Assembly: GCF_900109545.1 (NCBI RefSeq)
Contig: NZ_FOAP01000015.1
Coordinates: 62,001 to 126,000, forward strand
Direction: 5' to 3'
Origin: Stigmatella aurantiaca
Lineage (GTDB): Bacteria > Myxococcota > Myxococcia > Myxococcales > Myxococcaceae
Length of the DNA stretch: 64,000 nt
Numbering within the stretch: position 1 is the stretch's first letter; the number at the start of each line of letters is the position of its first letter. The position numbers and the translations under genes were made by a program. Shown piece after piece: positions 53,588 through 58,876 of this stretch. The notes under the pieces were generated by a model. It was not told the origin of the DNA, did no database searches, and worked only from the letters and a program-made list of their open reading frames with translations.

Positions 53588-58000
<4,413 letters not shown>

Positions 58001-58175
58001 CTCATCCCACCTCATACCTCCCCCTCCGCCTGCCCGCCTATCCACCCCACCACCTCCCACCGTCCCCACGCGAACCCCCTTCCTTATCGCGCCGGGCCGA
58101 CACCTCGCCCGTCCCCGCCGCCCCCTGCCCACATGCACGCCCGCTCTGCGGCCAGGAAGGCATCGCGCCTACCCC

Positions 58176-58321
58176 TGTGAAACCCTTCACCTGTTTCAAT
58201 CCCTCTCGTGTGAAACGTGTCACAAAAAAGGCCCCTGTGTGTGAAGCCTTTCACCGCTTCCGGCCCCCTTCCTGTGAAGGCACTCACAGGGGTTTTCCCT
58301 CGGGCTGTGAATCCTTTCACA
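58176..58321. repeat. Array of five CRP-like palindromes TGTGA-N6-TCAC(A/C), 31-33 bp apart
   Basis: Sites are at 58176-58191, 58209-58224, 58240-58255, 58273-58288 and 58306-58321. All five have TGTGA, six variable bases and TCACA (sites 2, 4, 5) or TCACC (sites 1, 3). Start-to-start distances are 33, 31, 33 and 33 bp, about three helical turns, so all face the same side of the DNA. Spacers between them differ. The motif is the CRP/FNR-family recognition form. The array lies in the 486-bp gap between the divergent topoIII-RecQ fusion (start 58000) and the small gene at 58487. The remainder of the gap (58001-58175 and 58322-58486) shows no gene; a 7-bp-arm stem-loop (CACCGCA/TGCGGTG) lies at 58389-58433 upstream of the small gene. 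Confidence 0.8.
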
Positions 58322-58486
58322 CCCCCGTTCGCACGCTGTACAAGCGCGATCTTTTCATGCAACTCTTTGTTTCAGCTCCCTGGGACGGCACCGCATCCGC
58401 CGCCCTGTTTCCGCGCCGGAAGCCGGTGCGGTGGAGGGGGAGTGGTACCGCGCAGCCACCATGGCCTGTGCATCCAGGAGAAGCGC

Positions 58487-58876
58487 ATGTCGCCATCGCT
58501 CGAGCAGCACCGTTCGCAGGGGGGGAAGGTTCCGGGAGGGGTGTGCGAGCTGGTCCTGTTCGCCGAGGGGAGCCTGGGCGCTCCCATGGCGCAGGCGTTC
58601 TCGCGGATGAGCCGGGGGGGCCAGGAGCTGGCCATGGCGGAGCGCGCGGCACCGGGGCTGGCTGCTTTCGGAGGGGAAAAGCGGCTGCAGCTCGCCGCCC
58701 TCGTGGTCTCGGGGGTGACGCTTTCATTGCGCCAGGTGGCGGAGGGCACCACCCTGCTCGCCTCCGTGTTGCGCCCCCCGGAGCCGCGCCGCAGCGTCCC
58801 CGGACGCCGCCGCACCCCCCGCGTGCTGGCGCTCCAGCCCACGCGGCTGGTGAACGTGCTTGCCAAGAAATGCTGA
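58487..58876 (+). CDS. Small protein of unknown function downstream of the operator array
   Basis: The 129-residue frame starts at ATG 58487, AGGAG being 7 bases upstream. It has neighbour-like codon use and a central VCELVLFAEGSLGAPMAQAF and LQLAALVVSGVTLSLRQVAE, with a basic C-terminus (RRSVPGRRRTPRVLALQPTR). There is no clear signal peptide and no recognised family. It is the likely rightward target of the array at 58176-58321, 166 bases upstream. A strong terminator follows it. Confidence 0.6.
   Translation: MSPSLEQHRSQGGKVPGGVCELVLFAEGSLGAPMAQAFSRMSRGGQELAMAERAAPGLAAFGGEKRLQLAALVVSGVTLSLRQVAEGTTLLASVLRPPEPRRSVPGRRRTPRVLALQPTRLVNVLAKKC

Follow-up and report, generated by a model that had tools for sequence, protein, structure and literature searches.

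Organization of the locus

The window, a stretch of 64,000 nucleotides (64 kb) from the predatory soil bacterium Stigmatella aurantiaca, carries an array of five short palindromes between a leftward topB-recQ fusion gene and a rightward small gene. From left to right, the features are:

53591–58003, minus strand: topB-recQ fusion gene (topoisomerase III and RecQ helicase), the divergent neighbour of the array and a possible second target
58176–58191, no strand: site 1, TGTGAAACCCTTCACC, TGTGA-N6-TCAC-type palindrome, kept in G095–G097
58209–58224, no strand: site 2, TGTGAAACGTGTCACA, palindrome of the same type, kept in G095–G097
58240–58255, no strand: site 3, TGTGAAGCCTTTCACC, palindrome of the same type, kept in G095–G097
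58273–58288, no strand: site 4, TGTGAAGGCACTCACA, palindrome of the same type, kept in G095–G097
58306–58321, no strand: site 5, TGTGAATCCTTTCACA, the palindrome closest to the conserved promoter block
58337–58381, plus strand: promoter-like block, TGTACA-N16/17-CAACTC...TTTCAGCTCCCTGG, common to the module at a kelch gene, with putative -35 and -10 elements
58487–58873, plus strand: small gene of 129 aa, the most likely target of the array, with syntenic homologues in Myxococcaceae

The leftward gene had been described as a fusion and is genuinely one: Pfam places Toprim, Topoisom_bac, DEAD, Helicase_C, RecQ_Zn_bind and HRDC domains within its single open reading frame. The N-terminal part of its product is matched in 78 of 91 Myxococcaceae genomes, where the open frames are mostly about 1300–1760 aa. 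The small gene, described earlier as unknown, encodes a product that has no Pfam match; its dN/dS of about 0.52–0.56 corresponds to moderate constraint, it is poorly conserved, and the single-sequence structure model of its product is poor (pLDDT 56.5).

The five TGTGAN6TCAC palindromes follow one another at steps of 33, 31, 33 and 33 bp, just as the original prediction gave them. This pattern has eight strand matches in the window, every one of them from the five array sites, against an expectation of 0.21 for the whole window under dinucleotide shuffling, and no shuffle reached eight. The exact form TGTGAN6TCACA is found at ten places in the 9.37-Mb genome, three of which lie within the array, and a genome scan for the two-site pattern GTGAN6TCAC-N12-24-GTGAN6TCAC gave no match elsewhere in it. 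The spacers had been called unrelated, which is mostly correct, but the stretch from site 1 to site 2 contains TTCAATCCCTCTC, which is kept in all four species. Translation of the array as a repeated peptide is ruled out because the 31-bp step, together with a change in length between 33 and 34 bp among relatives, breaks every frame. The stretch has no Rfam match to a structured RNA. Site 4 forms one weak terminator-like hairpin (one found versus 0.4 in shuffles).

Conservation of the array

A scan for tandem sites across 195 genomes of the phylum detected the same array in three (G095, G096 and G097) of the six further genomes from the genus. Alignment of the four array genomes shows all five sites kept, at steps of 33–34, 31, 33 and 33 bp, with most spacer bases variable. 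Among the genus relatives checked, G098, G100 and G101 have topB-recQ and no array site, and the topB-recQ orthologues checked in other genera were likewise without the array, several loci having been excluded for ending too near the gene. A search of relatives' topB-recQ gaps thus recovered the array with its spacing in four genomes of one genus, but not in the remaining gaps checked. Since the array is found in three relatives only and is absent from those other gaps, it is, to judge from its distribution, recent and clade-specific.

Related sites across the genome and their spacing

The array sites belong to a larger set. When one mismatch at most was allowed, TGTGAAN4TTCACA occurred at 17–22 sites per genome in the four array genomes (counts that include the sites of the array itself), versus 0–2 for the reversed pattern. 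Only three of about 40 motif sites checked lie inside called genes, although 83% of the DNA was called coding by a simple caller; palindromes of the TGTGAN6TCACA type therefore both exceed chance and sit almost always in intergenic DNA. Genes near these sites encode S8 subtilases and lysoplasmalogenase-like membrane proteins (YhhN), lipoproteins of the kelch and ELWxxDGT types, and a type IB topoisomerase. A lipoprotein-like gene is accompanied in each of the four genomes by a site of closely similar sequence (L307, L323, L324 and L328), and directly upstream of the type IB topoisomerase gene lies a conserved site with one mismatch, TATGAAGCAGTTCACA (L317:4097-4112 and its orthologues in L331–L333, across the four genomes). 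The latter site is a possible second topoisomerase link; its flanks are conserved too, making this weak evidence. A second apparent site at the same gene (L317:4170) was not counted, as it falls within what is probably the start of the coding region and lacks conservation. Taken together, the gene set carrying the motif is probably under a CRP-like regulator, and the array would be the densest promoter of a putative regulon marked by TGTGAAN4TTCACA. This points to a CRP-type regulon of secreted lipoproteins, subtilases and YhhN proteins in myxobacteria of the Stigmatella/Archangium type.

After related motif neighbourhoods were collapsed to 37 independent ones, a second site was found exactly 23 bp away in 12 of them (for example L308:4001/4024, L316:3769/3792 and L336:3983/4006); shuffles predict 1.7 second sites with all distances summed. 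The usual pitch of the regulon is not 33 bp, and the 31–34 bp of the array is about one helical turn above 23 bp. The original prediction envisaged a cooperative filament or repression complex on one face of the DNA. The spacing supports phased tandem binding as a trait of the regulon, but filament formation and repression are unsupported.

A candidate regulator

CRP-family genes in the genome (G000) include two, at C4:262258-262935 and C5:19905-20576, that both have the recognition helix TRESTNKWLRF, and a protein with this helix is present in two copies in each of the four array genomes. Its best full-length PDB matches are the M. tuberculosis CRP and C. glutamicum GlxR (E about 1e-34), and the printed alignment shows RE..NK in the recognition helix to be common to the candidate and the M. 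tuberculosis CRP, which recognises a TGTGAN6TCACA-like palindrome (PMC4117774; PMC4005916). Among the proteins encoded in the genome there is thus one of the CRP family whose helix is suited to TGTGA. Across 91 genomes, the mean motif count was 14.8, 4.3 and 1.9 for those with two, one and no copies of this CRP, respectively, and motif count correlated with copy number in a test that ignores kinship between genomes (Spearman 0.63, p 1e-11, n=91). Of the 34 promoters of the RESTNK CRP family, 16 contain a site with 10 or more of the 12 bases matched, versus 0.7% of shuffles; these sites are often paired, 23 bp apart, and occur across several genera. In G000 itself, the promoter of the C4 copy has weak sites only (9/12) and that of the C5 copy has none. 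With kinship again ignored, the sites track the CRP gene and its own promoter, with G109 as an outlier. That a dimeric regulator of the CRP type binds the array, as originally suggested, is largely supported by motif enrichment, co-occurrence with the CRP gene and resemblance of the helix.

It is improbable, in our estimate, that the binder is instead another dimeric regulator, either a CRP paralogue or a member of a different family, and that the link to the RESTNK CRP reflects shared ancestry. The motif counts are confounded by phylogeny, further CRP-family HTH genes are present in the array genomes, and G109 is rich in sites (19 in a 5.3-Mb genome) in the absence of a RESTNK CRP, where another regulator may use the motif. 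Against this stand the sites in the RESTNK CRP's own promoter in several genera and the identity of its helix with that of known TGTGAN6TCACA binders. MrpC of M. xanthus is also a myxobacterial CRP-family regulator and can have several sites per promoter (PMC8844925). The original prediction gave it a different preferred site, and that it is not the binder agrees with a comparison of helices, in which MrpC here has GASRSFVST (SRSFVST, versus TRESTNK in the candidate).

The NADH-sensing repressor Rex has the operator TTGTGAANNNNTTCACAA, and the core palindrome of that operator, TGTGAANNNNTTCACA, is identical to that of the array (PMC5355995); Paenibacillus, moreover, has arrays of a like type at a gene for an NADH-oxidase-like protein, which Rex might plausibly control. 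Rex is nonetheless very unlikely to bind here, because PF06971 exceeded the cut-off in none of the 91 Myxococcaceae genomes searched and did so in 6 of 14 control genomes. There was no PF06971 match at any score in G000 or G095–G099, the inner A of the array motif is conserved at 78% only, the T/A that flanks Rex sites is missing, and a regulon of YhhN proteins, S8 proteases and kelch lipoproteins would be atypical for Rex. We consider this candidate largely refuted and reject it.

Which gene the array may serve

A second array provides evidence on the target. In G096 and G097, three sites at steps of 31 and 33–34 bp lie upstream of a kelch/Ig lipoprotein gene, and each of these kelch arrays aligns as a single block of about 155 bp with the array at topB plus the right flank of that array, at 73% and 70% identity. 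Within it, TTCATGCAACT.TTTG is identical in the kelch copy of G096 and the topB-side block, and the copy in G097 differs at one base. The distance from the centre of the last site to that of TGTACA is 25–26 bp in all six array modules, a fixed geometry that would fit activation at least as well as repression. The kelch lipoprotein gene reads rightward, and the block has the same orientation relative to it as to the small gene. In relatives that lack the array, the gap between topB and the small gene has a related sequence, CACGCAAGTGTTTGG in G098 and CGCAAGCRGTTGGCG in others, which precedes syntenic homologues of the small gene. The most parsimonious reading would be that the array was added to a rightward promoter and afterwards copied together with it. 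A consensus scan for sigma-70 promoters gave none, and the right-hand block, read by eye, shows no consistent match to the sigma-54 type GG-N10-GC.

Because the kelch copies carry the same block on their right side, the array is most likely tied to the rightward gene, and it probably serves the promoter of the small gene at 58487–58873 rather than topB-recQ. The original prediction had tied it to topB-recQ, an assignment that does not fit the paralogous kelch arrays, which keep the promoter block on the right side instead. We regard it as unlikely that the array mainly controls topB-recQ, whether as an activator site or as a repression complex. In each of the four genomes, the array does lie upstream of the topB start, at a distance of about 172 bp, and the conserved site upstream of the type IB topoisomerase gene occurs in the same four. 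However, the kelch duplicate keeps the right-hand side only, in front of a rightward gene, and the conserved core promoter on that side predates the array. An effect on the divergent topB-recQ is possible, without positive support.

Proposed mechanism

From the computed motif, its conservation and regulon-wide enrichment, the co-occurrence of the CRP gene and the common promoter block, we infer a binding protein, its activating role and the responding gene: the five palindromes are reasonably likely to be operators for a CRP/FNR-family protein of the M. tuberculosis CRP/GlxR type that activates the small gene. CRP dimers with cyclic-nucleotide-binding domains would occupy the sites along approximately the same side of the DNA, upstream of a weak promoter that reads rightward. 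The dimer at site 5, about 26 bp upstream of the -35-like element and near class I CRP geometry, would contact RNA polymerase and thereby activate the small gene, while the sites upstream of it may raise occupancy or supply extra contacts.

Tandem CRP dimers at E. coli promoters can act synergistically (PMC4595672), and a 1994 study by Busby that this paper cites reportedly offers a further precedent for such synergy. As at the class I and class III CRP promoters of E. coli, TGTGAN6TCACA sites here lie upstream of a promoter; unlike the tandem-CRP promoters of that species, which have two sites, the array has five, 31–34 bp apart, and its predicted regulator is of the M. tuberculosis CRP/GlxR type. 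The regulons of M. tuberculosis CRP (Rv3676) and C. glutamicum GlxR share the RE..NK helix and the core operator but comprise different genes from the secreted lipoproteins, S8 proteases and YhhN proteins seen here, and in a limited literature search neither a 23-bp tandem pitch nor 33-bp arrays were found described for them.

More tentatively, and on balance doubtfully, a myxobacterial CRP regulator may assemble side by side at set spacings, with arrays that have grown and been copied as blocks rewiring promoters in one clade. If true, 23 bp would be the rule and the 31–34 bp of the two promoter arrays would be one turn longer; the array of five sites would then be the largest assembly of this kind and might work as a steep, cyclic-nucleotide-dependent switch. 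A candidate regulator can be named, the array and promoter were seemingly copied between genes as a single unit, and, given pitches of 23 and 33 bp, cooperative binding by neighbouring CRP dimers is open to direct test. The regulon, the regulator proposed for it, the rule of 23 bp and the copying of array and promoter as one block seem to be new, a limited literature search having found no published description of them.

Similar arrays in other bacteria

The arrangement of the array is not unique. The statement that no such array was known holds only in part: three-site GTGAN6TCAC arrays with a pitch of about 32 bp occur in other bacteria. In Paenibacillus and Saccharibacillus, arrays of three or four such sites with a pitch of 29–35 bp lie upstream of an NADH-oxidase-like flavoprotein gene (L099:5622-5703, L102:1435-1510, L119:1560-1640, L125:7254-7335 and L135:1680-1792), where Rex is the likely binder. 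In other Myxococcaceae genera (L050–L061), tandem GTGAC-N4-GTCACC palindromes 19–36 bp apart (for example L057:6409-6476 and L050:6456-6526) apparently represent a different regulatory system. Identified by reading the sequence, the genes downstream of these encode an M4-type protease or a conserved protein of about 500 aa, and some of the arrays lie near FHA-domain, sigma-54-activator-like genes.
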